Assembly (NCBI RefSeq): GCF_902498195.1
Contig: NZ_CABVIY010000004.1
Span: 248,001 to 312,000, forward strand
Length of the DNA: 64,000 nucleotides
Direction of reading: 5' to 3'
From: Pseudomonas fluorescens
GTDB lineage: Bacteria; Pseudomonadota; Gammaproteobacteria; Pseudomonadales; Pseudomonadaceae
The translations under genes were made by a program, and so were the position numbers. The notes under the pieces were generated by a model that saw nothing but the letters and a program-made list of their open reading frames with translations, ran no database searches and was not told the DNA's origin. Position 1 is the stretch's first letter. Each line of letters opens with the position of its first letter. This document shows, one piece after another, positions 2,251 to 23,644 of the stretch.

Positions 2251-2436
2251 ATCGGGAACCAGCAGCAGGGTGATGAAGATGATTGCTCGAATGTAATTAC
2301 GCATGGGCAAAGCCTTGAGGTGAGTTGAATTTCACCTTCCGGTATTTCGAGATTTGATGCATCTCAACTCAATGCACTTGCTATCACCTCTCTTTCAATC
2401 TCAGCTTTATGTGCCCTGAGACTACCTATGACAACT

Positions 2437-2486: not shown

Positions 2487-2491
2487 TGGAG

Positions 2492-2632
2492 TTAAGAGTT
2501 GAACACCAGCCTAAGGGTGGTCACCCCCAGCATGAGTATCAGTACAGTGTTGATGGTAAAAAGTTTTTTCACGTAGGGCCAAGTAAGCCACGTGAAAACG
2601 ATGATTAGGATGGCGATCAGTGTGTTGCTCAT
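2492..2632 (-). CDS. 46-residue two-span membrane protein, unknown
   Basis: MSNTLIAILIIVFTW begins the first hydrophobic segment (residues 4-19). A basic turn (YVKKLF) follows, then a second hydrophobic segment (about residues 27-43). The minus-strand ATG has GGAG 8 bases upstream, and a long hairpin follows the stop. Size and hairpin topology resemble small phage membrane proteins such as holins, pinholins or superinfection-exclusion peptides. Its position opposite the holin-like gene is compatible with a lysis role, but no family was recognised. Confidence 0.5.
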   Translation of the reverse strand: MSNTLIAILIIVFTWLTWPYVKKLFTINTVLILMLGVTTLRLVFNS

Positions 2633-2799
2633 GAGGTAGCTCCTTTATTTGGAGTCCTCATTTTCCCTGCGCGTTGAGCCATTAGGTCGCGCTTTCAGGT
2701 CGCTTTTGGTGTTGAATTGAAGGGGAGACCTGGATCACGTGTGGGGCCCAGCCAAGTAACTCGGACAGGCCATACTCCGCTTTGACTAGCAGGTAACCG

Positions 2800-6621: not shown

Positions 6622-7663
6622 GGCAACCATTCGCCACCAGGTGATGCTTGAGCAGTTGAAGTCGGGTGAGGCGGAGAAGATCGCCAAGTACCTGCGCGAA
6701 ATCGACAAAGTAGTCCGCGATCAGTTGAGTCGCGGCGACCTCACCGAATGGGGCAGGGATCGGTTTGAGAAGATGCTCGCAGAGGTCGACGGGCAGATTC
6801 TTGCCATCTACGCGCGGTATGCGCGACAGCTCAATAGCGACTTGGTGGATATCGCCGAGTACGAGGCGGCATTCGAGACGCGCAGCCTGGATCAGGTATT
6901 GGTCAACTACTCCGCTGTTGCTCCGACGTTGCCGGCATTGCGGGCGGCTATCAAGGCCAGGCCTTTGCAAGTTCAGGGCGCTGGTGGTGGAAAGCTGCTG
7001 GATTCGTTCGTTGAGGACTGGACCAGCACGGAGCGCAGCAGGATCATCAATGCAATTCGCCTCGGCTTCAGTCAGGGGCTGACCAACTTCCAGATTATTC
7101 AATCGATTCGCGGAACGAAAGCGGCGAACTACAGCGACGGCATTCTGGCGATCAACTCCAGAAACGCCGATGCCATCGTTCGAACCGCTGTTCAGCATGT
7201 ATCGAACGTGGCGCGTTTTGAGACCTGGGCCGCCAATCGTGATGTCGTCACCGGCTACCGATGGGTTTCAACCCTCGACAGCCGGACGACTCAGGTATGC
7301 CGATCGCTTGATGGTCGCGTGTTCAGCATGGGTAACGGGCCCATGCCGCCGGCGCACATCCGCTGTCGGTCAACGACTGCCGCAGAACTCGATGCGCGTT
7401 TCGACTTTTTGAAGAAGGGCGCCACTCGATCGAGCAAGGACGGCTATATCGATGCCGATCTGACGTATTACGACTGGCTCGCCAAGCAGCCTGCTTCCTT
7501 TCAGGATCAAGCTATCGGCAAGGCCCGTGGCAAGTTGTTCCGTGATGGCGGTCTCTCGGTTGAGCGCTTCACAGCGCTGCAACTCGATCGACGATTCAAA
7601 CCTCTGACGCTGGAACAGCTGAAGGCTATCGAGCCCTTGGCGTTCGAGCGGGCAGGGATCTAA
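6596..7663 (+). CDS. MuF/SPP1 gp7-like minor head protein
   Basis: 355 residues. The C-terminal half holds the conserved head-morphogenesis motif: YRWVSTLDSRTTQVCRSLDG, then MPPAHIRCRSTT (about residues 215-262), with the paired Cys and His seen in SPP1 gp7/Mu gpF proteins. These proteins are internal minor head components bound to the portal and may enter the host with the DNA. The 26-base overlap with the portal gene supports co-translation. A terminator follows immediately. Confidence 0.85.
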   Translation: MATAPVLIEATIRHQVMLEQLKSGEAEKIAKYLREIDKVVRDQLSRGDLTEWGRDRFEKMLAEVDGQILAIYARYARQLNSDLVDIAEYEAAFETRSLDQVLVNYSAVAPTLPALRAAIKARPLQVQGAGGGKLLDSFVEDWTSTERSRIINAIRLGFSQGLTNFQIIQSIRGTKAANYSDGILAINSRNADAIVRTAVQHVSNVARFETWAANRDVVTGYRWVSTLDSRTTQVCRSLDGRVFSMGNGPMPPAHIRCRSTTAAELDARFDFLKKGATRSSKDGYIDADLTYYDWLAKQPASFQDQAIGKARGKLFRDGGLSVERFTALQLDRRFKPLTLEQLKAIEPLAFERAGI

Positions 7664-7681
7664 GAAAAAGCTTTTATAACG

Positions 7682-7702
7682 CCGCCTCCGGGCGGTTTTT
7701 TT
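7682..7702 (+). terminator. Rho-independent terminator
   Basis: CCGCC and GGCGG around a 3-4 base loop followed by seven T, directly after the minor head gene. It separates the packaging/portal unit from scaffold and capsid. Confidence 0.8.
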
Positions 7703-7745
7703 ATGCCTGCAAAGCGGGCAGACCAAACCCAAGGGGTGCATCAGC

Positions 7746-8474
7746 GTGGCAGAAGAAACCGAAATCGACCTGGAAAACCCGGCAGTAAAGGCCGCTATCG
7801 CGACTGCCGTCGAAGCATCCGTCTCCGGGCTGAAAACCAAGAACACCGAGCTGCTCGGCAAGCTCAAAGACACCACCAGCAAGCTCTCGCAATTCGAAAC
7901 CCAGTTTGAAGGCATCGATATCGACGCCGTCAAAGGGCTACTGAGTCGTGCCGGCCAGGACGAAGAAACCAAGCTGCTGACTGAGGGCAAGGTGGACGAG
8001 GTCTTCAACCGCCGAACCGAGCGCCTTCGCGGCGACTACGACAAGCAGTTGAAGACTATCAGTGAGCGCGCTGAGAAGGCCGAGTCCTTCGCTGCCAAGT
8101 TCCAGGGCAAAGTTCTGGGTGACTCGGTACGCAGTGCAGCACTGAAGGCCGGCGCACTGCCGGAAGCAACCGACGACATCATCCTACGCGCCAAAGGCGT
8201 GTTCACCCTGAATGAAGATGGCGAAGCCGTCGCCACTGATGAGTCGGGCCAGACCATCCTTGGCAAAGACGGCAAGACCCCTCTGACCCCGCTCGAATGG
8301 GCGGAGTCTCTGCGCGAAAGCGCGCCTCATCTGTGGCCAAGGGCTTCAGGAACATTTGCCCCGGGCGGGGGTGGCGGCAAGGCTGCATTCAAGCGCTCCG
8401 AAATGACTTCCGAGCAGAAGCGCGATTTCCAGCGCAAGCACGGCCAAACCGCATATCTGCAATTGCCCAAATAA
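7746..8474 (+). CDS. Phage scaffolding protein
   Basis: 242 residues, acidic N-terminus (MAEETEIDLENPAVK) then a long coiled-coil-prone region (residues about 20-130) and a Gly-rich linker (FAPGGGGGKAAF) before a short C-terminal helix. This is the usual build of capsid scaffolds, which guide assembly of the coat protein and are then expelled. It lies 12 bases upstream of the capsid gene. The assignment rests on coiled-coil content, position and size rather than on a catalytic motif. Confidence 0.75.
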   Translation: MAEETEIDLENPAVKAAIATAVEASVSGLKTKNTELLGKLKDTTSKLSQFETQFEGIDIDAVKGLLSRAGQDEETKLLTEGKVDEVFNRRTERLRGDYDKQLKTISERAEKAESFAAKFQGKVLGDSVRSAALKAGALPEATDDIILRAKGVFTLNEDGEAVATDESGQTILGKDGKTPLTPLEWAESLRESAPHLWPRASGTFAPGGGGGKAAFKRSEMTSEQKRDFQRKHGQTAYLQLPK

Positions 8475-8486
8475 GGGGATTGACCC

Positions 8487-9437
8487 ATGGCTACAACCGT
8501 TAACAGCGACCTGATCATCTACAACGATGAGGCGCAAACTGCATACCTGGAGCGCGTCCAGGACAACCTCGATGTGTTCAATGCTTCGTCCAACGGCGCG
8601 ATGGTGCTCGACAACGAGCTGATCGAAGGCGACTTCCGCAAGCGTGCTCTGTACAAGCTAAACGGCTCGCTGGAACACCGCGACGTCAACTCCGAAACCA
8701 AGGTTACTGCCAAGAAAATCAGCGCTGGCGAAGCTGTTGGCGTCAAGGCTCCATGGAAGTACGGCCCGTACCAGACCACGGAAGAGGCGTTCAAGCGTCG
8801 CGGTCGTCCGGTCGAGGAGTTCTCCCAGATCGTCGGCGCCGACGTAGCAGATGCGACTCTGGAAGGCTTCATCCAGTACGCCACTGCTGGTCTCCGTGCA
8901 GCGATCGGCTCCAACGCTGACATGGTGGTTTCGGCCAACATCGAAACCGATGGCAAGAAAACGCTGACTCGCGGTATGCGCAAGTTCGGCGACAAGTTCG
9001 GTCGTATCGCGTTGTGGGTCATGCACTCCAGCGCTTACTTTGACATCGTCGACGAAGCGATCACCAACAAGATCTACGAAGAAGCCGGTGTCGTGATCTA
9101 CGGCGGCCTGCCAGGCACGCTCGGCAAGCCAGTGCTGGTTACCGACACCGCGCCGGCGGATGTGATCTTCGGCTTGCTGCCGAACGCTGTGACCATCACC
9201 GAGTCCCAGGCTCCGGGCTTCCGCTCGTACGAAGTGAACGACGAGGAAAACCTCGCCATTGGCTACCGCGCTGAAGGCACTGTGAACATCGATGTACTGG
9301 GTTACAGCTGGAAGGCCACCACTGGCGGTTCCAACCCAACCTTGGCCGCTGTGGGTTCGGCTGCCAACTGGATCAAGCATGCCGGCAGCAACAAGGTTAC
9401 CGCAGGCGTGATGATCACCCTGACGACCACTCCTTAA
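8487..9437 (+). CDS. Major capsid protein
   Basis: 316 residues starting MATTVNSDLIIYNDEAQTAY. Size, position after the scaffold, and the ADVADATLEGFIQYATAGL, IALWVMHSSAYFDIVDEAI and GKPVLVTDTAPAD segments fit an HK97-fold phage coat protein. It has AAGGGGATTG upstream. It forms the icosahedral shell. No proteolytic delta domain is evident, in keeping with a separately encoded scaffold. Confidence 0.88.
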   Translation: MATTVNSDLIIYNDEAQTAYLERVQDNLDVFNASSNGAMVLDNELIEGDFRKRALYKLNGSLEHRDVNSETKVTAKKISAGEAVGVKAPWKYGPYQTTEEAFKRRGRPVEEFSQIVGADVADATLEGFIQYATAGLRAAIGSNADMVVSANIETDGKKTLTRGMRKFGDKFGRIALWVMHSSAYFDIVDEAITNKIYEEAGVVIYGGLPGTLGKPVLVTDTAPADVIFGLLPNAVTITESQAPGFRSYEVNDEENLAIGYRAEGTVNIDVLGYSWKATTGGSNPTLAAVGSAANWIKHAGSNKVTAGVMITLTTTP

Positions 9438-9483
9438 CGCTCACCCATGAAAGCGGCCAGCGATGGCCGCCACGGAGATATCC

Positions 9484-10053
9484 ATGGAACTCACTTATTC
9501 CACTCAAAACTCTGGCTTTGATCCAGATAAGCGCTATCGCAACCCAGAGCACTTTGATCGCCCGGAAGCGGGTGTGACCGGTGTTGTTGTGGTTGGCGAA
9601 TGGCCTAACGTGGTCGATGCCTACGAGAGTGTCGGCGTCGAAGTGACGCTGAAGGAGGCGGAGAAGCGCCTTGTGCTGATTGTTGGTGCGGAAGATAACA
9701 AGGCCGAACTGGAAGCGTTGATCGGTAAGCTGCGGGCTGAAAGCGATACGGTTCGAGCGGTGATCGATGGTCTTGATGCCGGTGAGATCGAAAAGCCGGA
9801 AGCCGGCGAGCTCGCAATCCGGTTGTTTCAAGGGCTGGATGCCTTTCGTGTACAGATGATCGAACTGACCGGCCAGCGTGACGATCTGGCAGAGGAAAAC
9901 GAGAAATTGCGTACCGAGCTCGCGACACTCAAGGCCGACGGTCAGGAAGTCGAAGCGCTGAAGGCTAAGCTCGATTCTGCCGGCGTGACGTACCGCGCCA
10001 ACGCCTCGAAAGAATCCTTGGAAAAGCTCGTCGGCGATCTGCCCAGGGCTTGA
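9484..10053 (+). CDS. Head-associated protein with C-terminal HeH/LEM-like domain
   Basis: 189 residues. The N-terminal part (MELTYSTQNSGFDPDKRYRN) is of unknown fold; a coiled-coil segment spans about residues 120-165. The final 30 residues (LKAKLDSAGVTYRANASKES...) look like the small HeH/LEM helix-extended-loop-helix module seen at the end of many phage head proteins. Start 9484 has CGGAG 8 bases upstream and is preferred over an ATG at 9463. It lies between capsid and connector genes. Confidence 0.6.
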   Translation: MELTYSTQNSGFDPDKRYRNPEHFDRPEAGVTGVVVVGEWPNVVDAYESVGVEVTLKEAEKRLVLIVGAEDNKAELEALIGKLRAESDTVRAVIDGLDAGEIEKPEAGELAIRLFQGLDAFRVQMIELTGQRDDLAEENEKLRTELATLKADGQEVEALKAKLDSAGVTYRANASKESLEKLVGDLPRA

Positions 10054-12012: not shown

Positions 12013-12918
12013 ATGGGCAAGTTAGCCAACGGCTCGGCCGTTCAGTATTACTACGTCCAGGAAGTGGCCGGCGTTGTGCCCGCCACTCCGGCTTGGAAGC
12101 CGATTCGATTCGTCACCGCCGGCCTGACCCCGAACATCAACCAAATCGACACCGCGGAAATGAACCAGTCCCGGCAGCGTCCGCCGAGCCGCGGCGGTAC
12201 TTACAGCGTTGCCGGTGATATCGCTGTCGAGTTGTCGTTCTCCAGCTTCGACGATCTGATTCAGGCCGCCATGCAAGGCACCTGGACGGCCAATGTCCTG
12301 AAGATCGGCAAGGTGGAGCGTTCGTTTGCGATCCTTGAGCGTCACACGGATATTGGCGTCGACTACTGCTATCACGGCTGCCGCGTCAGCAAGATGGCGA
12401 TCAGCTCCCCACTGAATGCAAAGGTGGGCGTCACCTTCAGCATGATGGGCGCCAAGGCGGAGAAATACACCGTTCCAGTGGGCTCAACTTACGTCGCGGC
12501 CACAGCGACCGACACCATGGTCACCACCAACCTGGCACTGACCGAGGGTGGTGTTCCAGTGGCTTACGCGACCGAATGGAGCGTTGATCTGGATAACGGC
12601 ATGGAAGCGGTGTTTGCGCTGGGTAGCCGCGAGGCCTACGACATCTCCAACGGTGTGGCGGTGGTTACCGGCTCGATGTCGGCCTACCTGGTCGATGCGG
12701 TGCTGTGGGACAAGGTGCTCGAAGAGACCTCCACCTCGCACGCGATCGAATTCACCGAGGGCGCAGACAGCTACACGCTGGAGTTGCCGAAGGTCCGTTA
12801 CACCCAGGGCCAGAAGCAAACCAGCGGCCCCGGCGCAATCATCCCGCAATACACCGTGAGCGCCGGTTACGACGATGTGCTGGCCACCACCATGATGATC
12901 ACGCGCACCGGCGTGTAA
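12013..12918 (+). CDS. Major tail tube protein
   Basis: 301 residues starting MGKLANGSAVQYYYVQEVAG. Segments such as FVTAGLTPNINQIDTAEM, GDIAVELSFSSFDDLIQAAMQGTW and VSKMAISSPLNAKVGVTFSMMG fit the Phage_tube_2 family of siphovirus tail tubes. It polymerises around the tape measure to form the DNA conduit. It is flanked by terminators, as highly expressed structural genes often are. Confidence 0.88.
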   Translation: MGKLANGSAVQYYYVQEVAGVVPATPAWKPIRFVTAGLTPNINQIDTAEMNQSRQRPPSRGGTYSVAGDIAVELSFSSFDDLIQAAMQGTWTANVLKIGKVERSFAILERHTDIGVDYCYHGCRVSKMAISSPLNAKVGVTFSMMGAKAEKYTVPVGSTYVAATATDTMVTTNLALTEGGVPVAYATEWSVDLDNGMEAVFALGSREAYDISNGVAVVTGSMSAYLVDAVLWDKVLEETSTSHAIEFTEGADSYTLELPKVRYTQGQKQTSGPGAIIPQYTVSAGYDDVLATTMMITRTGV

Positions 12919-12978: not shown

Positions 12979-13404
12979 ATGACCACCAAAACCAAAGCAG
13001 CCGAAACCGTCAAGCCATTCGCTCTGTCCGACTTCTTCACTCTGGGCGCACTGGAGAAGGGCAAGAATTTGCCACTGACCTTGCCGGACGGCACCGCCAC
13101 GGAATATCACCTGGTGGTGCTGGGCGCAGATGCGCCGGCGGCGCGCAAGGCACTGCTGGAAGCGACCCGCATCCTGCGTGACAAGGGTAAGGAAGGCATG
13201 ACGGCCGAAGAGGAGGACGCCATCGCTCAGCGTGCCAATCTGCATTACCGCACCGCGCTGGCTTTCGATTGGTCGCTGCCTGTCCCGTACTCGAAAGAAG
13301 CCGTTACCGAGCTGCTGCTCAACAACCCCGGCCTGGCAAATGATGTTGAGCGTCTGGCGAGCGACCGCGCCCGTTTTTTCGCTCCAGAGTTGACAGCCTC
13401 CTAA
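12979..13404 (+). CDS. Tail assembly chaperone (gpG-like)
   Basis: 141 residues starting MTTKTKAAETVKPFALSDFF. Size and place between tail tube and tape measure match the lambda gpG class, which keeps the tape measure soluble during tail assembly. Near its end the reading frame crosses a TTTTTTC heptamer (13374-13380) and a second frame, open from 13350, continues to 13718. A fraction of ribosomes therefore probably makes a longer gpGT-type protein of about 246 residues. Confidence 0.85.
   Translation: MTTKTKAAETVKPFALSDFFTLGALEKGKNLPLTLPDGTATEYHLVVLGADAPAARKALLEATRILRDKGKEGMTAEEEDAIAQRANLHYRTALAFDWSLPVPYSKEAVTELLLNNPGLANDVERLASDRARFFAPELTAS
13374..13380 (+). other. Probable -1 ribosomal frameshift site (T TTT TTC)
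   Basis: In the gpG frame the codons are TTT (13375-13377) and TTC (13378-13380), preceded by T. Slipping back one base leaves TTT TTT in both sites, an ideal X XXY YYZ heptamer. The -1 frame is open from 13350 and joins the 13491-13718 frame without a stop. Programmed frameshifting at this place is established for siphovirus tail chaperones; here it is inferred from sequence. Confidence 0.82.
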
Positions 13405-13490: not shown

Positions 13491-13718
13491 ATGACCAAGC
13501 ACAAGCCTCGGGAGCTGGACATTCCGGCCGTACCTGAGGGTATGGGCTATCTGGCCGGTTTGTACTGGGAGCTCAAGCGCACCAGTGATCCCCTGACTTG
13601 GCAGGAAATGGACGCTTGGACGCGGATGATGGATCGGCAGATCGAGCCGGAAGAGGCCCGGGTGCTGATGAAGATGGACCACATTCACTGTCGGGTTATG
13701 AGTGAAGGCGTGGGCTGA
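13491..13718 (+). CDS. Tail assembly chaperone, frameshift (T) domain
   Basis: 75 residues from the first ATG, but the frame is open back to 13350 and is more likely translated as the C-terminal 112 residues of a gpGT fusion after slippage at 13374-13380. Residues before the ATG (SRVDSLLSHWEGEAKLNKPV) continue the helical character. In lambda the T domain binds tail tube protein while G binds the tape measure. No good ribosome site precedes the ATG beyond GGGAG inside a coding stretch, which supports the fusion. Confidence 0.75.
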   Translation: MTKHKPRELDIPAVPEGMGYLAGLYWELKRTSDPLTWQEMDAWTRMMDRQIEPEEARVLMKMDHIHCRVMSEGVG

Positions 13719-13896
13719 GCATTCACACGCTGGGTAGGCGGACGGGGGCCACGCTCCCTCTGCTTCTAGGCGATGACTCAGGAGTAATCAGTCTTTATGC
13801 TTTGGATGTGTCTACTATCTTTAACTGAAAAAGGTAGTGACACTCAGGGTTGTGCCGAATAGCATGCGGCCATCATCGTAAAGCTGAGCCAGCAAC

Positions 13897-14277
13897 ATGG
13901 ATGTAGTACAAGAGTGGTTTGAGGAGCTTCCTGATCAGTGCCCGCCTGCCCAGGCGTCAAATCTTGAGAAGTTCGTCTGCTATCGCCTTTGCGAAGGCGC
14001 CCAGCCAGTGGAGGGGGATTTTCTATCCCACCGTACGCTATTTCCGAAGAAAGTGTTCCGTGTTCCTGAGTGTCAAGCGCGAGCTATATCTGTCTACAAA
14101 GAAGCGGAGGACTTGGATTCAGTACTGAAACTCCCTGCCCATAAACATAAGATCAAGGTGAAGATCACCTTGGGGCAGGATGACGGGGCAGTTATGAAGA
14201 CTGGGCAAGGCAGTCACTATTCTTGGTGGCGATCAAAACGCTTCGATTTAGCGTGTGCGGCAGGGGGCAGGGAATGA
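13897..14277 (+). CDS. Unknown protein, first gene of a two-gene cassette in the tail module
   Basis: 126 residues, MDVVQEWFEELPDQCPPAQA. The protein is mixed alpha/beta with a KHKIKVKITLGQDDGAVMKTG segment near the C-terminus and four Cys. It is not a recognisable tail protein. A 178-base non-coding gap precedes it, and its stop overlaps the next start (ATGA), so the two are translationally coupled. It interrupts the usual chaperone-to-tape-measure order, which points to an acquired accessory (moron) cassette. Function unknown. Confidence 0.7.
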   Translation: MDVVQEWFEELPDQCPPAQASNLEKFVCYRLCEGAQPVEGDFLSHRTLFPKKVFRVPECQARAISVYKEAEDLDSVLKLPAHKHKIKVKITLGQDDGAVMKTGQGSHYSWWRSKRFDLACAAGGRE

Positions 14278-15401
14278 AAGCCATACAGCTACTGCACGTT
14301 CTGCTGGACTACGACTATCCGCAGGTTTTCGTGGCGCGTGACGCTATCGGTGTTCGTTACGTTTGCATGGTGGCGGAGGAGGTTGAGCATGGCCCAGTAT
14401 TTCTCTGCGTTCCTGTGTCTGATTACCGCTGTAGGGAGCTACTTACCGGGAAAATCGATCTTAGGCATGTTTATGAGAACCCTGAGCTTTCCGAGTTCTA
14501 TCAAGCTTCGCCGGATGACTTGACCGAGCCATTTGGCATAGAGCTGACGCGGTTCAATGTGGCTCCACAAGACTGGCTGCCAGATCCGGGCTTGGTTTTT
14601 CAGTACGACGACGAGGTCCTGATCAAGGCGCAAGAGCTGAACGCTACGGTTGCTTTTGCATCTCTGGCAGTTCCAGAGGCGTCCCACGAGGCAAGGATCC
14701 GCACACGCAAACTTTCCGAGTTTTTGGCTATTTATCAAGGCGTACTTCGCAATCTGGCGAGGGTTGCTGCTAAGTCGAATGGTAAAGCGATACCCAAGGG
14801 GGATGAACCCTACGAGTCAGACGTTTTTGGATTTTGCCCTGGCTCTTTCACAGTCCAGGTGCGTAGTGCAGAGTCCTGCGACATGCTAGGGGAGAATAAA
14901 GCGCTAATCAGCGCCTTTACCAAGCTCAACGAGTTCTTGGCGTTAGCCGACAAGCCAGATGAGGCAGTCAGATTTTTGCTGGGCATTAAGGGGCATGCTG
15001 CCTCGTCACTGATAAGCCTACTGAATTTCATCGCTGAAAACGATTGCCCGTTCGCCAACACATGGTCTACCCCTGGTATGCGGAGCTCAAGTAAAAGCAA
15101 GATCCGTGTAGCCAGTGCTCAAAATGTCATCCAGCGCTGCCGACATCGCGAAGATCTAGGTGTGGAGGACATAGCGTTGACCGGTATTGTTGACTCAGCA
15201 AAAGTATCAACAAGCACTTGGAGGATCGATGTTGACGGTGTGGCTTATAGCGGCGGCATCAAAGACGGGTCGAATCTCAACTTGGCGGGAATAACGGTCG
15301 GAAACAGATACACATTTCATTGCCAAGAGAAAATCGAGATCGTGCACGGGACTGGGCGCGAGGTGAAAATAATTAGCCTAGTTCGGTTTGAGCCCGCTTG
15401 A
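14274..15401 (+). CDS. DUF6575-like protein, second gene of the cassette
   Basis: 375 residues. The N-terminal 100 residues (LLDYDYPQVFVARDAIG, ...CVPVSDYRCRELLTGKIDL) resemble the DUF6575 domain, a small beta-rich module of unknown role. The rest is an alpha/beta region, and a final small beta-barrel-like part (TGIVDSAKVSTSTWRIDVDG) follows. The ATG overlaps the preceding stop with GGGGGCAGGG upstream. A strong terminator follows, so the pair is a self-contained unit. The family name is from memory of the sequence pattern; no function is known to me. Confidence 0.65.
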   Translation: MKAIQLLHVLLDYDYPQVFVARDAIGVRYVCMVAEEVEHGPVFLCVPVSDYRCRELLTGKIDLRHVYENPELSEFYQASPDDLTEPFGIELTRFNVAPQDWLPDPGLVFQYDDEVLIKAQELNATVAFASLAVPEASHEARIRTRKLSEFLAIYQGVLRNLARVAAKSNGKAIPKGDEPYESDVFGFCPGSFTVQVRSAESCDMLGENKALISAFTKLNEFLALADKPDEAVRFLLGIKGHAASSLISLLNFIAENDCPFANTWSTPGMRSSSKSKIRVASAQNVIQRCRHREDLGVEDIALTGIVDSAKVSTSTWRIDVDGVAYSGGIKDGSNLNLAGITVGNRYTFHCQEKIEIVHGTGREVKIISLVRFEPA

Positions 15402-15431
15402 GTTAATAAACGCCCTTCTACCAGGAACCTA

Positions 15432-15457
15432 GAGCCCAGCCCCGCGCTGGGCTTTTT
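15432..15457 (+). terminator. Rho-independent terminator
   Basis: GCCCAGC (15434-15440) and GCTGGGC (15446-15452) with loop CCCGC and five T. It closes the two-gene accessory cassette. Confidence 0.85.
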
Positions 15458-15491
15458 GCATCTGGTGGCGATAACTTTGGCTCACCGGACC

Positions 15492-15776
15492 TTATATGAC
15501 CATTGCATCGAATAACCATTTGACATCCCCGAGGTCTTGCTCGTTGGATTGCTCTATGTGACCAAGGATGTTTAGAAAGTTTTCCCGGTCGACCTTAGTT
15601 ACGGAGCGATGCATTGGGACGCACCAGTGATTCACCACTCCGGAAGGAAATGTTGTTTTCTTTAGCGCGATTTTAACCTTTGTGCGCAGCACCCTTTTTT
15701 GGGAAGTGCTCAGTCTTTCATTGTCAGCAAAGGTTCTCAGCAACTCAGCTTTGTCGATGTTCGATTGAAGAGGCAT
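15492..15776 (-). CDS. Small minus-strand protein, unknown
   Basis: 94 residues, MPLQSNIDKAELLRTFADNE, mostly helical and basic in the first half (KRVLRTKVKIALKK), ending DVKWLFDAMVI. It lies opposite in direction to the structural genes and near the Mnt-like repressor, as lysogenically expressed accessory genes often do. The ribosome site is weak (GGAGCGCTGA). No family was recognised. Confidence 0.5.
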   Translation of the reverse strand: MPLQSNIDKAELLRTFADNERLSTSQKRVLRTKVKIALKKTTFPSGVVNHWCVPMHRSVTKVDRENFLNILGHIEQSNEQDLGDVKWLFDAMVI

Positions 15777-15853: not shown

Positions 15854-16303
15854 TTACTTTTTCGATCTTGGCGGATGGGTATTCTCTGCAACTCTAGTTG
15901 CGAGATGAACATCGCTGTCAATTCCGAGCGGCATTGATTGTTTCCTTTGAGGAGGCCTTTCTTCTGGAGGCATGGCCGCCCTGGCAGCAGCGTGGCGAAG
16001 GTACTTCGCCGTAGCCTCTTCATGCAGCAATTCGACCTGATCCATGTGACTCAAGTTAGACATCGATTTAAGGTCAGAAATCTTATCAAGGGTTTCTTGA
16101 TACATCCTAGCCAAGACCTGCATAGCCGCATCGTGCTCGGATAGAGGCTGCGCGACGGTGTCTCTCGCGAAGCTCTCCTCAAGGCGAGCGACGATTTCTG
16201 CGTTGAGGCTACGTTTTGCCTGCCCTGCAGAGGCTTCGAGCTGATCCCTAAGCTCTGCGGTCATGCGAAGCGAGTAGGGCGGTAATACATGCCGGTCTGT
16301 CAT
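15854..16303 (-). CDS. Arc/Mnt family repressor (Mnt-like position)
   Basis: 149 residues. MTDRHVLPPYSLRMTAELRDQL gives the beta strand and first helix of a ribbon-helix-helix fold, completed by KRSLNAEIVARLEESF. A coiled-coil or oligomerisation tail follows. Start 16303 has GTGGAAACC just upstream; an earlier ATG at 16354 would extend into the operator region and is rejected. Divergent to the Arc-like and antirepressor genes, it occupies the place of Mnt in P22 immI, the repressor that shuts off the antirepressor in lysogens. Confidence 0.85.
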   Translation of the reverse strand: MTDRHVLPPYSLRMTAELRDQLEASAGQAKRSLNAEIVARLEESFARDTVAQPLSEHDAAMQVLARMYQETLDKISDLKSMSNLSHMDQVELLHEEATAKYLRHAAARAAMPPEERPPQRKQSMPLGIDSDVHLATRVAENTHPPRSKK

Positions 16304-16357
16304 TGGTTTCCACGGTGCAATGATATTAAACAGAGATTCTGTTCGTGCATTCAAAAA

Positions 16358-16401
16358 GATTCAAGAATCCACTTGACGTCAAAATCTAGTGACGTCAATA
16401 T
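16358..16401 (+). promoter_or_regulatory. Antirepressor promoter with two TGACGTCA operators
   Basis: A -35 TTGACG (16373-16378) and a -10 CAATAT (16396-16401) are 17 bases apart. Two copies of the perfect palindrome TGACGTCA (16374-16381 and 16390-16397), 16 bases centre to centre, cover the -35 and the spacer. GATTC-AA-GAATC (16358-16369) lies just upstream. These are natural sites for the two divergent ribbon-helix-helix proteins. Binding is inferred. Confidence 0.7.
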
Positions 16402-16428
16402 GAATCCACAACGCAAAGGAGGAGCACC

Positions 16429-16602
16429 ATGAAAGGCGCACACCAGATCTCGGCGTATAGCCTACGGATCGCGGATGAACTGAAAAAAAAGGCAATGCAG
16501 GAGGCTGGCATCAACCGTCGCAGCCTCAATGCCGAGCTTGGCCTGCTAATTGAGGAGGGGCTGAAATGGCGGGAAATGCAGAACAAGCAGGCGGCAGCCT
16601 GA
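16429..16602 (+). CDS. Arc-like ribbon-helix-helix repressor
   Basis: 57 residues. HQISAYSLRIADELKKKAMQ and RRSLNAELGLLIEEGLKW make up a complete Arc-type beta-helix-helix fold, the same size class as P22 Arc (53 residues). It has a very strong ribosome site (AAAGGAGGAG). It lies directly downstream of the operator-promoter and just before the antirepressor gene, exactly as arc precedes ant in P22, where Arc limits overproduction of Ant after induction. Confidence 0.88.
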   Translation: MKGAHQISAYSLRIADELKKKAMQEAGINRRSLNAELGLLIEEGLKWREMQNKQAAA

Positions 16603-16609
16603 AAACGAA

Positions 16610-16639
16610 GAAGCCCCAGTGCGGGAACACTGAGGCTTC
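16610..16639 (+). ncRNA. Intercistronic hairpin between arc-like and ant-like genes
   Basis: GAAGCC-C-CAGTG pairs with CACTG-A-GGCTTC around loop CGGGAA, an 11-pair stem with a single C/A mismatch. In P22 a small antisense RNA, Sar, arises in the corresponding arc-ant gap and controls Ant translation. This hairpin may be such an RNA's terminator on the other strand or a structural element limiting ant expression. The ncRNA label is tentative. Confidence 0.4.
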
Positions 16640-16673
16640 GGGAAACGAGATCAACTTCGGAGAAGAAATCGTC

Positions 16674-17588
16674 ATGAGCAATAATAGCACAGCTGCATCC
16701 AGTGTCATCCCGTTCAACTTCGGTAAGCAGCAGGTCCGCACGCTGCTAATCAGCGATCAGCCTTGGTTCGTTGCTGGCGACGTCTCGCTGGCTCTTGAGT
16801 ACCGCGATTCTTTCAATATGTGTCGCAACCTGGATGACGATGAAAAGGGTACTCAGATTGTGAGTACCCCTGGCGGCGAGCAGGAAATGTTAGTCATCAA
16901 TGAGTCCGGTCTTTACTCGGCGATTCTCCGCAGCCGTAAGGCTGAAGCCAAGCGCTTCAAAAAGTGGATCACCGCTGAAGTTCTTCCAGCAATCCGTAAG
17001 CATGGTCGCTACGAAGACCAGGGCAAGATGGCCGCGCTTATGGATCAGCTGAGCCTGAGTCAGTTCAATACCATCAAGGGAGTGATTCGCGACAAGATCA
17101 AGGCTGCACCTGCAGAGAAACGGCAAGGCTTGCAGCTGGTCATGCATAACCGCTTGCACACCCGGTTCAACGTGCCGCGTACCGAGTTGATCCCGGCCAG
17201 TCAGTTCGACTCGGCTTGCAACTTCATCGCTGCATATTCGATCGAGGGTGAATATCTGGGGAAAGAGACTGCTGCGCCAATGCTTCCGCTCAATATCCAC
17301 TTTCCAGTCGATTGCCTGACTGATCGTCGTGAAGGGATGCGAAAACCTCGTGATGAAAAGCATGACTATCTGGGCGTCGTACTTTCCGATCTAGCGGAGA
17401 ATTTCACCTCGCCTTGCGAGAAAATTCTTTCTGAGCTTTCGCGTGCCGGCTACAGCGTCGAGGGCGCATGGTGGGAGTTTCGCACCTATCGGAATAAAAC
17501 AGAGCAACTGCTTGGCATGATCCGCGGACTGCAAGAAGTAGCAGTCGCCCCCCAGTCCTACGTGATTGGCCGAAGGGTGTCCGCATGA
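16674..17588 (+). CDS. BRO-N/Ant-type phage antirepressor
   Basis: 304 residues. The N-terminal Bro-N domain (VIPFNFGKQQVRTLLISDQPWFVAGDVS..., INESGLYSAILRSRKAEAKRFKKWI, VLPAIRKHGRY) spans about residues 10-120. A separate C-terminal antirepressor region follows. Such proteins bind and inactivate the phage repressor. Start 16674 follows GGAGAAGAA; the in-frame ATG at 16566 overlaps the arc-like gene and would place the intercistronic hairpin inside the coding region, so it is less likely. Confidence 0.88.
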   Translation: MSNNSTAASSVIPFNFGKQQVRTLLISDQPWFVAGDVSLALEYRDSFNMCRNLDDDEKGTQIVSTPGGEQEMLVINESGLYSAILRSRKAEAKRFKKWITAEVLPAIRKHGRYEDQGKMAALMDQLSLSQFNTIKGVIRDKIKAAPAEKRQGLQLVMHNRLHTRFNVPRTELIPASQFDSACNFIAAYSIEGEYLGKETAAPMLPLNIHFPVDCLTDRREGMRKPRDEKHDYLGVVLSDLAENFTSPCEKILSELSRAGYSVEGAWWEFRTYRNKTEQLLGMIRGLQEVAVAPQSYVIGRRVSA

Positions 17589-18082
17589 GCAATGTCATCC
17601 CGTTCGATTACGAAGGCCATCCTGTTCAGCTCAGTGCTGATGGCTGGCTGAACGCCACGGCAATCTCCAAGAGGTTTGGGAAGCGCCCAAGCCACTGGCT
17701 TGATCTGCCGACCACTGCCGAATACCTCGAAGCTTTGGCCAAAAGATTAAGTGTCGGAAAATCCGACACATTGATTCGCAGGAAGATGGGTCGCAATGGC
17801 GGGGTTTGGCTGCACCCAAAACTGGCAGTAGCTTTCGCTCGGTGGCTATCTGCTGACTTCTCTGTGTGGTGCGACTTGCAGATCGACGCACTTCTGCATG
17901 GCGACGTGGATGCTCGAAAGCGTTTTGATTCTGCATGCCTGGCATTGGAGCGCGGGCAACAGCTTGCGAGCCTGAGTGGAAAAGGGCTTTCCAGTTGGCG
18001 CTGGTCCAAGCCCGGACTGGAGCACAATGTTGATTACTGGCGTGAACAGCTCCAACTGACACTCGCGCTCGACGCCGCGTAA
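17585..18082 (+). CDS. KilA-N domain protein
   Basis: 165 residues. SNVIPFDYEGHPVQLSADGW, NATAISKRFGKRPSHWL and GVWLHPKLAVAFARWLS are the KilA-N DNA-binding signatures, found in phage and large-virus regulatory proteins. The N-terminus (SNVIPF) resembles that of the preceding antirepressor. The start overlaps the antirepressor stop (ATGA), so the two are translationally coupled and probably act in the same switch. Confidence 0.88.
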   Translation: MSNVIPFDYEGHPVQLSADGWLNATAISKRFGKRPSHWLDLPTTAEYLEALAKRLSVGKSDTLIRRKMGRNGGVWLHPKLAVAFARWLSADFSVWCDLQIDALLHGDVDARKRFDSACLALERGQQLASLSGKGLSSWRWSKPGLEHNVDYWREQLQLTLALDAA

Positions 18083-18176: not shown

Positions 18177-18473
18177 ATGGAATACCTGATTGTTTGGCTC
18201 GCAATTGCCGGGGCTTGTGCATATTTCGCAAGTCAAAAGGGGAGAAGCGCTTTGGGGTGGTTTGTGATCGGCTTCCTCCTTTCGTTTATCGCCCTGATTA
18301 TTCTATGGGTGCTCCCATCTGTTGGATTTGATGACGCCAAGAGCCAAGAAATTGCTCGCAAGTTTGGCGTGTCCTCGCTATACAGAAAATGCCCTGAATG
18401 CGCAGAACTCGTTCAGCGAGAGGCAGTTAAATGCAAGCATTGCCAGGCAGCTCTGCCAGCGATAAGCGCCTGA
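18177..18473 (+). CDS. Small membrane protein with C-terminal zinc ribbon
   Basis: 98 residues. Two transmembrane helices (about residues 3-18 and 26-47) are followed by a linker and a CPEC...CKHC zinc-ribbon motif (CPECAELVQREAVKCKHC). Proteins of this build are common in bacteria and prophages, with no defined role. It has its own GGGAGGATG ribosome site and is followed by two terminators, so it is a single-gene unit inserted before the tape measure. Confidence 0.8.
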   Translation: MEYLIVWLAIAGACAYFASQKGRSALGWFVIGFLLSFIALIILWVLPSVGFDDAKSQEIARKFGVSSLYRKCPECAELVQREAVKCKHCQAALPAISA

Positions 18474-18562: not shown

Positions 18563-21500
18563 ATGACTGAGACAGCGCGCCTTGTTATCGCCGTTGACAG
18601 CACACAGGCAAAGTCGGCAACCGCTGAGCTGAGCAATCTTGAGCGTTCATCAAAAAATACAGAGTCTGCGGTGTTGCGGCTCGCCTCTAGCGGCGGACTG
18701 GCAGTAACTCAGCTCAGCAAGGTCCAAGAAGTAGGGCGAAGCGCCGCCAATAGCGTCTCAGGTTTGGGTGAAGCGCTGAAGGCGACTGCGGGCTTACTTG
18801 GAGCAGCATTCAGCGTAAGGGAAGTGGCAGCTGCTGCTGATGAGTACGCTAACCTGACCAACCGACTGCGATTGGTGACTGAAGGGGCGGTACAGCTAGC
18901 TGCTGCTCAGGAAGCCGTGTTCAGCTCCGCTCAAGCGTCGCGTCAATCTCTGGAAACAACGGCGTCCGTTTATCAGCGTGTAGCCCAAAACGGCAAGCAG
19001 CTAGGCCTGAGCTTTGCCGACGTAGCAAGCATTACCGAAACCATTGCTAAGTCTGTTGCCCTCAGTGGCGCAAGTGCTCAGGCGGCAGAGGCGGCGCTGA
19101 CGCAATTTGGCCAAGCGCTCGCATCAGGTGCGCTACGTGGCGATGAACTGAACTCCATCATGGAGCAGACGCCAGCTCTCGCTCAAACCATTGCTCGCGG
19201 ACTTGGAGTATCTGTCGGCCAGTTACGTGCCATGGGTGCCGAAGGGGAGCTCACTTCAGAGAAGCTCATCAAGGCACTGACCGGTCAAAAAGCAGCGGTG
19301 GATGAGCTTGCTACGACAATGCAAGTGACTGGTAGCCAAGCGCTAACGGCGTTTGGCAACTCGCTTACTCAAGCCATTGGAAAGCTGGATGAGGCCGCAG
19401 GGGCTAGCAACAAGTTTGCGGGCGCCATTCTTTCAATGTCGCTAGCCTTGGACGGATTCAGCTCCGGTGAGTTCTCAGACTTCTTTCGCGACAACAAGCA
19501 GACGGTAGCAGGGCTCAATAGCGAAATCGGCACCACGCTTTCGCGTATGCGTGATCTGAACACTGCTCGTGCCAAGCTGAACCCAAACGACGCCGGCGAT
19601 ACTGTTCTCTTCAACTTCAAGTTCTACAATCGCGACGAGCTAGACCGTGAGATCGCAGGGCTCAGTAAACGGGCTGATGAAGCCCGCTCCACCATTGAAA
19701 AGATGAAGAAGGATGCCGCGGGGGTCAGCGGGCAATCCCCGAAAGGCGAGGCTGCTGGGGCTAGCGCTGTAAACGAGGCGTACGAAAAACAGCTTAAAAG
19801 CCTTCAAAAGATGGCCGCCCTTCAGGGCGATAACACTGAAGTGGCCAAGACTCGCTATGCAATCGAGCATGGCGAACTCGGCAAGCTGCTTCCGGCGCAG
19901 GAAGAATTACTGCTCAAGTACGCTAGAGAGAAGGATGCCAAGGCAGCCTCCGAGGCAGTAGTAAAAAAATACGGATCGGCAGCAGAGAAGGCGGCCAATC
20001 AAGAGAAGAAAGCTCTCGACTCCCTACTCGCGCAATCCGCCATATCGACAAACTCCACCAACGCCATGGCCGACGCCTACCTGGCCGGCGCCGACAACGT
20101 CCGCGAGCTGACGATCCAGCAGAAAGTCGAAGAGGAGCTGCTCAAGACTGGCGCCGGCGCGCGTGACGCTGTAACCGCGGCAGTCAATCGTGAGGCCGAC
20201 GCCAAAGACCGGTTGGACATTTCGCAGTCCATCGCAAACATGCGTGCGGAAACCACGCAGACCTTGGCCCAGGCCACGGCAACGCTTCAAGGGGCGGACG
20301 CTCTCGAAACCTTCAATATCCAGAAATCGATGTCTATCGCGCTTTCGGGCAAGAAGATCGAGTACGGCAGCAAGGAATATGAGCAGCTTCTTGAACAGAC
20401 CAAAGCTCAGCTGGCAGCTAACAAGGCGCTGGAGCAGGCCAACTCAATCGAAGGGATCGTTGACCGGCTGAATCCACAGGTAAAGCTGCTGCGCGAGTAC
20501 ACGAAGGAGCAGGAGGCACTCAACGCCGCTATAGCCTCAGGCAGCGGGGATACGGCGTTATACCAAGAAACTCTGGCGAAGCTTGCCCTCGAATATGAAC
20601 AAAACAGAAACGCCGCTACTGCTTGGGGTCAATTCACTGAAGGCGCAGTGGACCGGGTAGATGATGCATTCGCTGATGCCTGGAAAAACATCGATGAAGA
20701 CTTCGATGGCTTTGCAGCAAGCCTGAAGGATGGCTTCAAGCAGTTGCTGGCCGAGCTGGCGCACATGGCAATCACCAAGCCGATCGTTATGCAGATCGGC
20801 GCTTCGCTGGGTGTGGGCGGCCTGTCAGCGCAATCATCTGGGCTTTTCGGCGGTTCTGGCGGTGGCGGGCTGAATTTAGAAAGCGCTTGGAATTCTGTCA
20901 GCGGTGCTTATAGCGTAGCGACCTCCGGGTTTGGTAGTGCCGTGGGTGCGGGCTGGGCTGGCGGCGAAGGGTTGATTGGCGGGCTTCAAGGTGCCTTCAC
21001 AAATGGCGCAAGCTACGTCAGCAGCGCCATCTCTGGTGCATTTGCCAGCGGTGCAACGACTGCCGCTAGCGAAATTACCGCCGCTGGGCTGTCTGGTGCG
21101 GTGGGCCAGGGCGCCGGATCTATTGCTGTGGGAATCGGTGCCGACGCGGGCGCTGGCGCAGCTAGTTACTCGGGCGCTGCGGCATCGGCGGCCGCCGGCC
21201 TTAGTGCTACCAGCGCCATCACTTTCGGTATCGGCGGAGCGATTGCCGGCTACCTGAAGGCAGGCGTCAAAGGTGCGGTTGCCGGCGCGGGTGGTGCGGT
21301 CGCCGGCGCGTATGCCGGTGCAGCTATCGGCTCGGCTGTTCCTGTGATCGGTAACGTCATCGGTGCGGCCGTTGGTGCGGTGCTTGGTGGAATGTTCGGG
21401 TCTTCGCTGTTCGGCGGCGACTGGGTCACCAAAGACCAAGGTATCCAACTGGGTGTCACCGGCGGCGAGCTGGATGCATCTTCGTTCGAGTACCAGAAGA

Positions 21501-23644
21501 AAAAGGGCGGCCTGTTCAGCAGCAACAAGAAACGCACTCGTCTCAGCGCGCTCGATCCGGAGATGCAGTCGGCGCTGGATACCACCTACGCGAACACCTT
21601 GGGAACCGTCCTCGGGCTCTTCGACAGCCTCAACGTCGAGCTCAGCGACAGCGTGCTGGATGGCCTTAACATGGCCGACACGAAGATCAGCACCAAGGAC
21701 AAAACAGCCGAGCAGGTTCAGGAGGAGGTTACAGCCTGGTTTGGCGAACTCGGAAATGCTGCCATTTCGGCGGTATCTGATGCCACAAACTCGGGGCTGG
21801 CTGGCTATTCGCTGGATCAACTCGGCACATTTGTCGGCAACCTGTTCAGCATCAACGACACATTCAAGTTACTCAACGTCAACGCGCTGCCTGTATCGGT
21901 ATGGGGCGGGAAACTCGCCGAGCAGTTCGTTGCGATGTCGGGTGGCATGGAGGCGTTTAACACCAACGCCAAAAGCTATTACAGCAATTTCTTCACCGAG
22001 ACAGAGAAGGCCGATGATGTATTGAAATCGGTCACTGATCAGTTCGCGGCGCTCGGTGTGACCTTGCCGGCATCCCGTGCAGGGTTCAGGGCATTGGTTG
22101 AGGGGATCGATAGTACGACCGATGCCGGTCGTGCGATGTACATCAATCTCATCGGCCTCAATGAAAATGCCGCCTCCGCATACACCATCCTCGAACAGCG
22201 TGCGTCTGCCGCTGAGCAAGCAGCGCTTGATTTGGCCCAAGCCCTGACCGATTCATTGGTGGGCGCAGCGAGCAGTGCCCATAGCGCTGTTCAGCGCGCC
22301 ATCGCAGCACAGCAAAAGGCGACGACCGAGGCCTACAACGCTCGGATCACTTCGCTCAACGACATGGCCAGCACCGCGAAGGAGAGCGTCAGCGGACTGA
22401 CTTCTGTCGGTAACGACCTGGGCGCGGCACTCAAGGCTTTGCGCGGCGACTCGGATGATGCCGTGAAGATGCTGCGAACTCAGGCGCAGGCCACGCTGCA
22501 AAGTGCGCTGGCAACAGCACGCGCGGGCGGCTCGCTGTCGGGTTTCACCGGCTTGAGCGATGCACTGGATACCGTCGGGAACAACAACACCGATCTGTAT
22601 AGCTCGATGGAGGACTTTGCCCGGGATCAGGGGCGGACGGCCAACGTGGTAGCGGAGTTGAATGGCCTCAACGGCAAGCAGCTCACCACTGCCGAGAAGT
22701 CGCTGAAAGGGCTTGAGGATCAGATCAAACAAGCCAAAGACAGCTACGACCTGCAGATGGCGCAGTTCGACCAGCAGCTTGAGTTCGCTCAGGCGCAGAT
22801 GGATGCCCTTAACGGCATCGACAACTCGATTGTAAGTGTCGCGGATGCCGTGAAAGCAATGAATGCCGCAGTTGTTGCGGCGCTCGGAAGCATCAAGTCA
22901 GCAACCCCAACCAACGCCGGGACGCTGATTGACTCGGTTTATCAGGATCTGCTCGGGCACAACGCCGATGCACCAGGCAAAACATACTGGCAGGGCCAGG
23001 TCAGCAACGGCTCTCTCGGCTATGACCAGCTCGCTGGGGCTATCAAAAACGCAGCCGCTGAAAACGCCATCAAAGACGCCTATCAATCCGTGCTCGGCAA
23101 AACTGCAGACGCAGCTGGTGCCAAGTACTGGGCCGATCAGGTCGCTTCGGGGGCGCTGACTGTTGGCCAGCTGGAACAGGCCATCAAGAACGCGGCGGTG
23201 GCCAATGGCTCTATCGCCGGCCACGCCATGGGAGGGCTGATCTCCGGCCCTGGCACCGGAACAAGCGACAGCATTTTCGCCCGGCTCTCGAATGGCGAAT
23301 ACGTCATGAAAGCGTCCGCGGTGAGCATGTTCGGTACCGGCCTGCTCGATCAGATGAATGCCGGGCAGTTGCCGGCGTTCGCCATGGGCGGCGGGGTTGG
23401 TGAGATAGCGCCTCAGCTGGAAGTAATGGCGCCAAGCCGGATCTACAGCGGTAATCAGGCGGCATTGACGAGCAGTAGCAGCACCACCGCTCAGCTCGCG
23501 CAAAAGGTCGACACGCTGATTGACGTGGTTAAACAGATCATGGGGCCGATGAAAGTTGACCTTAACAAGAATAGAAAAATCTTCGAGAAGTTCGATAAAG
23601 AAGGCTTGCCACCTACCCGAGCAACTACAGCGAGTGCCACCTGA
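18563..23644 (+). CDS. Tape measure protein with DUF4214-like repeats
   Basis: 1693 residues. The N-terminal tape-measure domain (YANLTNRLRLVTEGA..., LRGDELNSIMEQTPALAQTIARGLGVSVGQLR) covers about residues 95-235. Coiled coils follow, then a Gly/Ala-rich hydrophobic centre (about 750-960) that could form membrane spans during DNA injection. Near the end are two tandem DUF4214-like repeats (VYQDLLGHNADAPGKTYW and YQSVLGKTADAAGAKYW; about 1450-1550), then GGLISGPGTGTSDSIFARL typical of tape-measure C-termini. It sets tail length; at roughly 1.5 angstrom per residue it predicts a tail near 250 nm. Confidence 0.93.
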   Translation: MTETARLVIAVDSTQAKSATAELSNLERSSKNTESAVLRLASSGGLAVTQLSKVQEVGRSAANSVSGLGEALKATAGLLGAAFSVREVAAAADEYANLTNRLRLVTEGAVQLAAAQEAVFSSAQASRQSLETTASVYQRVAQNGKQLGLSFADVASITETIAKSVALSGASAQAAEAALTQFGQALASGALRGDELNSIMEQTPALAQTIARGLGVSVGQLRAMGAEGELTSEKLIKALTGQKAAVDELATTMQVTGSQALTAFGNSLTQAIGKLDEAAGASNKFAGAILSMSLALDGFSSGEFSDFFRDNKQTVAGLNSEIGTTLSRMRDLNTARAKLNPNDAGDTVLFNFKFYNRDELDREIAGLSKRADEARSTIEKMKKDAAGVSGQSPKGEAAGASAVNEAYEKQLKSLQKMAALQGDNTEVAKTRYAIEHGELGKLLPAQEELLLKYAREKDAKAASEAVVKKYGSAAEKAANQEKKALDSLLAQSAISTNSTNAMADAYLAGADNVRELTIQQKVEEELLKTGAGARDAVTAAVNREADAKDRLDISQSIANMRAETTQTLAQATATLQGADALETFNIQKSMSIALSGKKIEYGSKEYEQLLEQTKAQLAANKALEQANSIEGIVDRLNPQVKLLREYTKEQEALNAAIASGSGDTALYQETLAKLALEYEQNRNAATAWGQFTEGAVDRVDDAFADAWKNIDEDFDGFAASLKDGFKQLLAELAHMAITKPIVMQIGASLGVGGLSAQSSGLFGGSGGGGLNLESAWNSVSGAYSVATSGFGSAVGAGWAGGEGLIGGLQGAFTNGASYVSSAISGAFASGATTAASEITAAGLSGAVGQGAGSIAVGIGADAGAGAASYSGAAASAAAGLSATSAITFGIGGAIAGYLKAGVKGAVAGAGGAVAGAYAGAAIGSAVPVIGNVIGAAVGAVLGGMFGSSLFGGDWVTKDQGIQLGVTGGELDASSFEYQKKKGGLFSSNKKRTRLSALDPEMQSALDTTYANTLGTVLGLFDSLNVELSDSVLDGLNMADTKISTKDKTAEQVQEEVTAWFGELGNAAISAVSDATNSGLAGYSLDQLGTFVGNLFSINDTFKLLNVNALPVSVWGGKLAEQFVAMSGGMEAFNTNAKSYYSNFFTETEKADDVLKSVTDQFAALGVTLPASRAGFRALVEGIDSTTDAGRAMYINLIGLNENAASAYTILEQRASAAEQAALDLAQALTDSLVGAASSAHSAVQRAIAAQQKATTEAYNARITSLNDMASTAKESVSGLTSVGNDLGAALKALRGDSDDAVKMLRTQAQATLQSALATARAGGSLSGFTGLSDALDTVGNNNTDLYSSMEDFARDQGRTANVVAELNGLNGKQLTTAEKSLKGLEDQIKQAKDSYDLQMAQFDQQLEFAQAQMDALNGIDNSIVSVADAVKAMNAAVVAALGSIKSATPTNAGTLIDSVYQDLLGHNADAPGKTYWQGQVSNGSLGYDQLAGAIKNAAAENAIKDAYQSVLGKTADAAGAKYWADQVASGALTVGQLEQAIKNAAVANGSIAGHAMGGLISGPGTGTSDSIFARLSNGEYVMKASAVSMFGTGLLDQMNAGQLPAFAMGGGVGEIAPQLEVMAPSRIYSGNQAALTSSSSTTAQLAQKVDTLIDVVKQIMGPMKVDLNKNRKIFEKFDKEGLPPTRATTASAT

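Follow-up and report, generated by a model that had tools for sequence, protein, structure and literature searches.

The two-gene unit A-B in the tail module of a Pseudomonas fluorescens prophage is probably a cargo toxin-antitoxin module of abortive-infection defence, sister to the known system PD-T4-10. The window, i.e., the whole stretch of DNA that was analyzed, comprises 64,000 nucleotides (contig NZ_CABVIY010000004.1, positions 248,001 to 312,000), and the coordinates of the features discussed are listed in Table 1. A sequence-only reading had proposed prophage cargo of the toxin-antitoxin or defence type, and this proposal is supported by the homology of A with PD-T4-10A, the DUF6575 domain in B and in the PD-T4-10 pairs of two other loci (L004 and L010), the biology of PD-T4-10, the constant co-occurrence of the two genes, their changing contexts, and the relation of B to PDC-M63B. 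On the other hand, the PD-T4-10_B models of PADLOC do not match window B even at a cut-off of E 1, and beyond DUF6575 there is no firm link with PD-T4-10B (E 0.0012); both points are counted against the toxin-antitoxin reading.

PD-T4-10 is one of 21 defence systems obtained from an E. coli selection in 2022 (Vassallo et al., PMC9519451). According to the available text of this paper, it is an abortive-infection system of two overlapping ORFs, in which the first gene counters the toxicity of the second; the first gene resisted deletion, and T4 resistance is lost without the toxin B. Neither protein has a predicted function in that text, and DUF6575 is named there among the domains new to defence, the carrier protein not being given. 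The association of DUF6575 with PD-T4-10B is therefore drawn from the matches in L004 and L010 found here. PMC9519451 was the only paper on PD-T4-10 and DUF6575 found in the open-licence literature. Since this related defence pair had already been published, as the available part of that paper makes clear, the earlier suggestion of an undescribed system is not supported. The two pairs share the overlapping ORFs and a small A (126 aa here) before a larger B (375 aa), A is homologous in both, and the B relatives have DUF6575 in common. They differ in host and element, and the C-terminal half of window B is of another, PDC-M63B-like type. As window B lacks a PD-T4-10_B match, A-B is classified as a sister variant of PD-T4-10 and not as a member. 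To our knowledge no experiment has been carried out on the A-B subfamily of the window, a further point against the toxin-antitoxin reading.

Table 1. Features of the A-B region and of the neighbouring tail module (positions in the window).
Feature	Position	Strand	Remarks
Tail tube gene	12013-12918		PHROG/Pfam
First tail assembly chaperone	12979-13404		PHROG/Pfam
Tail assembly chaperone 2 (Phage_TAC_18), bounding the cargo on the left	13491-13718	+	Pfam E 4.7e-13
Gene A, putative antitoxin, PD-T4-10A family	13897-14277	+	126 aa; PADLOC PD-T4-10_A match
ATGA stop/start overlap of A and B	14274-14277	+	read from ORF coordinates
Gene B, putative toxin/effector	ATG 14274 to 15401	+	375 aa; Pfam PF20215 match
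DUF6575 domain of B (aa 5-115), common to PD-T4-10B relatives	14286-14618	+	Pfam, profile comparison
C-terminal region of B (approx. aa 140-361), remotely PDC-M63B-like	14691-15356	+	via family members, not window B alone
Terminator-like hairpin with T-run 3′ of B	15438-15453	+	site number not above chance
94-aa ORF directly 3′ of the pair	15492-15776	minus	no Pfam match; weak PHROG matches (0.089, 0.19)
Tape measure gene, right boundary of cargo region	18563-23644	+	PHROG E 7e-100

The ATGA-coupled two-gene unit described in the earlier reading is present, with both ORFs and the overlap where they had been placed. The same 4-bp overlap occurs in L004, L005, L008, L009, L010, L016, L041, and L076, while A and B are separated by gaps of 9-15 bp, without overlap, in L003, L007, and L013. 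Both genes appear to evolve under constraint, with pN/pS of 0.13-0.26 in 12 of 12 pairwise comparisons among the window, L005, L008, and L009, in which synonymous sites are near saturation (pS 0.59-0.92). The GC content of A and B is 51.8% versus 59-61% in the three upstream genes, a difference that is not extreme, as 14% of the same-size stretches of the window are equal or lower. With regard to regulation, the pair had been credited with its own leader and terminator. A 178-nt gap upstream of A and the hairpin are indeed present, but in a scan of 13600-15600 the numbers of sites did not exceed chance, with one promoter-like site found versus 1.4 expected and five terminator-like sites versus 2.6 ± 1.7 expected. 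An own promoter and terminator are plausible; because of these site numbers, expression of A-B in the lysogen is considered putative only, and this is counted against the toxin-antitoxin reading.

Window A matches the PADLOC PD-T4-10_A model (PDLC04023) at E 1.6e-4, and the close A proteins match it at 0.0075 (L005), 3.5e-4 (L008), and 2.1e-4 (L009). A further HMM, built from seven distant A proteins with the window subfamily omitted, also recovered window A (E 1.3e-17, with the number of sequences set nominally to 1000). Judged from these profile comparisons, A is homologous to PD-T4-10A. Counted against the toxin-antitoxin reading is that six A homologues match PD-T4-10_A at E 9e-5 to 0.0075 and four have no match. 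A proteins outside the close group are 14-29% identical to window A, which itself has no PHROG or NCBIfam match and, even at a cut-off of E 10, none in Pfam; a PDB sequence search gave nothing credible (best 0.73). Weak PD-T4-10_A matches were also observed in L011 and L012, whose open frames contain stop codons.

Protein B matches the Pfam family DUF6575 (PF20215) over aa 5-115 at E 5e-9 (36.3 bits versus a gathering cut-off of 26.6). L004, which comes from another genome of the genus, and L010 each contain a PD-T4-10 pair of the same layout (for A, 2.1e-50 and 1.7e-32; for B, 1.4e-131 and 4.5e-52, respectively), and DUF6575 scores 24.3 bits in L004 B and 15.8 bits in L010 B, both below the cut-off. 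In hhalign runs, whose values are single, uncalibrated comparisons, the window B group aligned with four distant DUF6575 proteins (from Staphylococcus phage phiPV83 and from Oscillatoria, Rhodococcus, and Arthrobacter plasmids) at E 3.8e-19 over 330 columns; these distant proteins aligned with the PD-T4-10B type at E 7.6e-7 over 104 columns of the DUF6575 part, and a direct comparison of the window B group with the PD-T4-10B type gave E 0.0012 (probability 20%). It appears from these matches that the N-terminal DUF6575 domain of B is common to the PD-T4-10B relatives. The PADLOC PD-T4-10_B models match B weakly in L016 and L041 and do not match B of the window, L003, L009, or L013. A PDB sequence search with B returned nothing credible (best 0.013, IpaD over a helical stretch). 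The distant pairs of phiPV83 (orf62/63) and the plasmids are homologous along most of B, with an A-family gene upstream, but their B proteins are only about 20% identical to window B (19-21% for the three aligned), and we know of no function for them.

As to the C-terminal half of B, the L041 protein (Arthrobacter) has two matches, one to PD-T4-10_B in its N-terminal part (6e-5) and one to PDC-M63B over aa 166-281 (1.4e-8). L016 B matches both models as well (6.6e-6 and 0.0048, respectively), PDC-M63B more weakly than L041 B does. An alignment of eight long B proteins matched one PDC-M63B in hhalign with a score of 46.6 (E 8.6e-6, 206 columns), the best of 30 shuffled controls scoring 23.8, and the distant B group alone gave 5e-7. 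However, the four-member B group of the window alone gave E 0.062 and a score of 20.2, a value that shuffled controls reached as well; window B had no match to the PDC-M63B model, and no link to PDC-M63B was obtained for the PD-T4-10-type B relatives (E 0.36). The C-terminal half of B is thus remotely akin to PDC-M63B by way of its family members. In the L072 locus, a PDC-M63 candidate defence pair (1498-2888, minus strand) adjoins a gene with a NERD match; it was the only PDC-M63 found in the 229 genomes searched. There PDC-M63A precedes PDC-M63B and belongs to DUF6932 (E 4.8e-35), with weaker polymerase-beta/nucleotidyltransferase matches. PDC-M63 resembles A-B in its effector half and in the small partner gene upstream but differs in that M63A is a DUF6932 nucleotidyltransferase-fold protein, which window A is not, that L072 M63B has no DUF6575 match, and that PDC-M63 is only a candidate system. 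No paper on DUF6932 was found in the open-licence literature. From these profile matches, it seems that one type of effector half is combined with either of two small partners: in one case a protein of nucleotidyltransferase fold, in the other the A family plus DUF6575. A further swap of the C-terminal half of B is indicated by the domain matches of L007 (16-1761, minus strand), where DUF6575, below the Pfam cut-off, is joined to a peptidase domain of the M78 (ImmA/IrrE-like) type and a gene of the A family lies upstream.

Structure prediction had been suggested for both proteins and gave a usable AlphaFold2 model for A (pLDDT 85.8, from eight sequences; two of the five models were lower, at 64 and 37). 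The model of B (pLDDT 45.6) is usable for about aa 1-110 only, and its best VIA-align match (Z 6.4) lies in a helical, low-confidence part. Foldseek gave nothing significant for A, the best match being a tRNA 2′-phosphotransferase (E 0.53). When the top 1000 chains of the same Foldseek search were re-examined with VIA-align, tRNA 2′-phosphotransferases came first (Z 6.5, 3.3 A, 93 aligned), and next among the matches listed were RES, DarT, ParT, TreTu, and other proteins of the ADP-ribosyltransferase fold. We take the best 50 of these 1000 chains to have this fold, as judged from titles or general knowledge, except for 2aua and 8gug, which were not placed; many of the rows repeat a few proteins. 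Against viral structures the best Foldseek E was 0.085, with ADP-ribosyltransferase annotation in 5 of the 50 matches listed, most of the others listed being uncharacterized. We rate an ADP-ribosyltransferase-like fold of A as likely, short of proof, because Z values below 8 may reflect no more than a common arrangement.

In ADP-ribosyltransferases, strands 1, 2, and 5 hold the three catalytic positions, with the Arg of the R-S-E motif on strand 1, the Ser on strand 2, and the catalytic Glu near strand 5. In the model of A, Arg30 lies on strand 1 (26-32), Ser65 on strand 2 (64-67), and His107 on strand 5, so that the Arg and Ser of this motif appear to be present. Pro16, Ser65, and His107 are invariant in 13 of 13 A proteins, and Cys15, Arg30 (Lys in the remaining protein), and Cys59 occur in 12 of 13. 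No Glu is conserved near strand 5 in the 13 A proteins, where all have His107, and the sole alignment column with at least nine acidic residues of 13 is position 41. Catalysis by A may thus have been lost. In addition, hhalign of A (12 sequences) against RES (17) and KptA (9) gave no sequence link, and none of the 11 A members examined matched an ADP-ribosyltransferase family of Pfam.

The co-occurrence of the pair in other phages and bacterial genomes, a check proposed in the earlier reading, was found to be constant: an A-family ORF lies directly upstream of B on the same strand in 13 of 13 loci with full-length B. In the window, L003-L010, L013, and L016, A was recognized with HMMs from which the locus in question, or else the entire close subfamily, had been left out. 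In L041 (6.3e-9; unannotated in the record) and L076 (8.2e-38), whose sequences had not been used to build it, the full HMM was applied. L010 was found via A and the other counted loci via B, and the length of L006 B was taken from a 676-aa open frame. Separate and random occurrence of the two genes, which would have spoken against a functional pair, was not seen; the pieces found apart are short or partial and lie outside the count, namely L014 (a 140-aa DUF6575 protein with an A remnant), L015 (a 134-aa DUF6575 protein, no A), and L017 (neither). In L014, a Parabacteroides plasmid (2689-3420), the upstream remnant of A is split over two frames and the pair is apparently decaying.

DUF6575 is rare, being detected in 2 of 95 relatives, 2 of 398 genus members, and 3 of 398 phylum members, in samples that overlap and each include the own genome. 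Window B matched 2 of the 50,697 phage records searched, phiPV83 in both cases, and 4 of 72,556 plasmid records; a second query added the Arthrobacter plasmid. In phiPV83 (L003, 2550-4155), an S. aureus prophage, the pair orf62/orf63 is situated between leukocidin genes and the attP region. The close subfamily is composed of L005, L008, and L009 (63-75% identity to window A and 70-81% to window B) and L076 as a fifth close member (58% and 67%). Their contexts differ: the L008 pair lies 3′ of a tail tube gene and chaperone in another phage; the L076 pair lies in a third phage after an antirepressor 60% identical to that of the window and before the tape measure gene, ahead of chaperone-like ORFs (assigned by eye); the L009 pair lies between tRNA-Ser and an integrase gene; and the L005 pair lies in a tRNA-Pro island, preceded by ORFs that by eye resemble pheT and ihfA. 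Immediately 3′ of the L005 pair, a Septu-like pair was observed at 6945-9556 (PtuA/PDC-M01A and PDC-M01B matches).

In the window, the pair is separated from the tape measure gene by about 3.2 kb containing Arc, Ant, and KilA-N genes. The regulatory genes lie within the tail module at 15854-18082 (Arc, Arc, Ant with Bro-N, and KilA-N/ORF11CD3), with one Arc-like gene on each strand 3′ of B; Pseudomonas phage records also contain DNA related to the Ant gene. Just 5′ of the tape measure gene lies a gene for a small zinc-ribbon protein (18177-18473), and a protein of 65% identity occupies the same position in L032 (5614-5943), a Pseudomonas prophage without A-B. Related tape measure genes were found in 38 genomes, the own genome included, and the tail stretches of the best nine others were compared. 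A and B were absent from all nine (tblastn, 1e-3). In L035, L038, L039, and L040, no window protein was matched at all and the comparison is based on ORF lists. In six of the nine (L032, L034, L035, L036, L039, and L040, with L034 and L035 near-copies of each other), an extra plus-strand ORF of at least 100 aa precedes the tape measure gene, as judged by eye from ORF lists, and in four of these six it is lipoprotein-like by eye. The slot between chaperone and tape measure also accommodates the gp15 moron of HK97; in phages phiH2 and SH-Ab 15497 nothing is annotated there. The order which the pair was said to break is therefore variable, contrary to the earlier reading, and the slot is an ordinary cargo site. 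Given that the five close pairs lie in differing contexts and that none occurs in the nine related tail stretches, A-B is regarded as mobile cargo.

Taken as a toxin-antitoxin module, A-B would work as follows. B would be a latent toxin, a DUF6575 protein whose C-terminal half is the effector, and A, translated just before it, the antitoxin that would hold B inactive in the uninfected lysogen. Infection by a competing phage would break the control of A over B, and the freed B would then halt growth of the infected cell and block the spread of the phage. We infer the toxicity of B, the neutralizing role of A, and phage infection as the trigger by analogy with PD-T4-10, and the ADP-ribosyltransferase-like pocket of A may take part in neutralization as far as its predicted fold and residues indicate.

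How A might neutralize B admits two explanations. It comes close to an even chance that A is a catalytically dead protein of ADP-ribosyltransferase fold that neutralizes B by binding alone, as in type II systems, and possibly senses NAD or ADP-ribose. The ATGA coupling fits complex formation, and A resembles the fold but lacks the Glu that is conserved in most protein ADP-ribosyltransferases. Against this, near-invariant pocket-type residues across A sequences only 14-29% identical to window A suggest retained ligand binding or catalysis. The type VII-like explanation, in which A is an enzyme of this fold that would inactivate B by adding a nucleotide or ADP-ribose, and infection upsetting NAD or removing the mark would free B, is rather unlikely. 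It draws on the listed VIA-align matches, on the placement of Arg30, Ser65, and His107 on model strands 1, 2, and 5, and on PDC-M63B, a relative of the C-terminal half of B whose partner (DUF6932) has a nucleotidyltransferase fold. This arrangement suggests that A may be, or may derive from, a nucleotide-transferring enzyme, and a precedent exists in HepT/MntA, whose nucleotidyltransferase antitoxin neutralizes its toxin by modifying it (as described in the available text of PMC7641770). The two kinds of partner and this precedent make an enzymatic antitoxin a sensible hypothesis, though no more than that, given that there is one PDC-M63 locus, that the profile match is remote, and that the fold has a middling Z. 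HepT/MntA and other type VII systems are functional analogues only, with a small transferase-fold antitoxin beside a larger toxin; no sequence relation was found, and their fold class differs from that of A. Nothing was found in the open-licence literature combining type VII toxin-antitoxin with ADP-ribosyl. Against enzymatic action stand the Z values below 8, the best Foldseek E of 0.53, the repetitive VIA-align rows, the lack of an hhalign link to RES/KptA and of a Pfam ADP-ribosyltransferase family in A, and the missing acidic residue near strand 5.

Two further explanations need no toxin-antitoxin pair. It is quite improbable that A-B, like the HK97 gp15 moron, serves lysogen fitness or superinfection exclusion without a toxin. 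This explanation has in its favour the shared slot and the extra small ORFs of six of nine related prophages, but HK97 gp15 is a single small gene for superinfection exclusion (by a title cited in PMC10884400), A-B also occurs outside phages (the L005 island and the plasmids L013, L016, and L041), and its relatives are toxin-antitoxin and defence genes. An accessory role of A and B in the tail or the assembly of the phage is hardly credible: the location in the tail regions of three phages (window, L008, and L076) would agree with it, yet the pair also lies beside an integrase gene and in a chromosomal island, its distant relatives lie on plasmids of other phyla, and neither A nor B has a structural PHROG match, in line with the earlier impression that neither gene looked structural.

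The A-B subfamily places PD-T4-10 in a wider group that extends over Pseudomonadota, Bacillota, Actinomycetota, and Cyanobacteriota, a part of which the PADLOC PD-T4-10_B models miss. It gives the antitoxin a testable fold (Arg30, Ser65, and His107), and it divides the toxin into a common DUF6575 part and exchangeable C-terminal parts. A more specific idea, that an ADP-ribosyltransferase-fold antitoxin family modifies a DUF6575 toxin in an NAD-dependent manner and that partner enzymes have been swapped on one effector C-terminal type, must be considered doubtful. If true, it would make the A family the ADP-ribosyl counterpart of the nucleotidyltransferase antitoxins, with the DUF6932 partner in PDC-M63 and the A family here, and NAD-dependent modification would give PD-T4-10 its missing mechanism.

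In a P2-like prophage of a Salmonella record labelled as a plasmid (L017, 2980-3621), a 213-aa C-terminal fragment of PD-T4-10B (E 1.3e-34) lies after ogrK, without DUF6575 or A, and is present at at least 99% identity in 159 of 5426 complete E. coli genomes.
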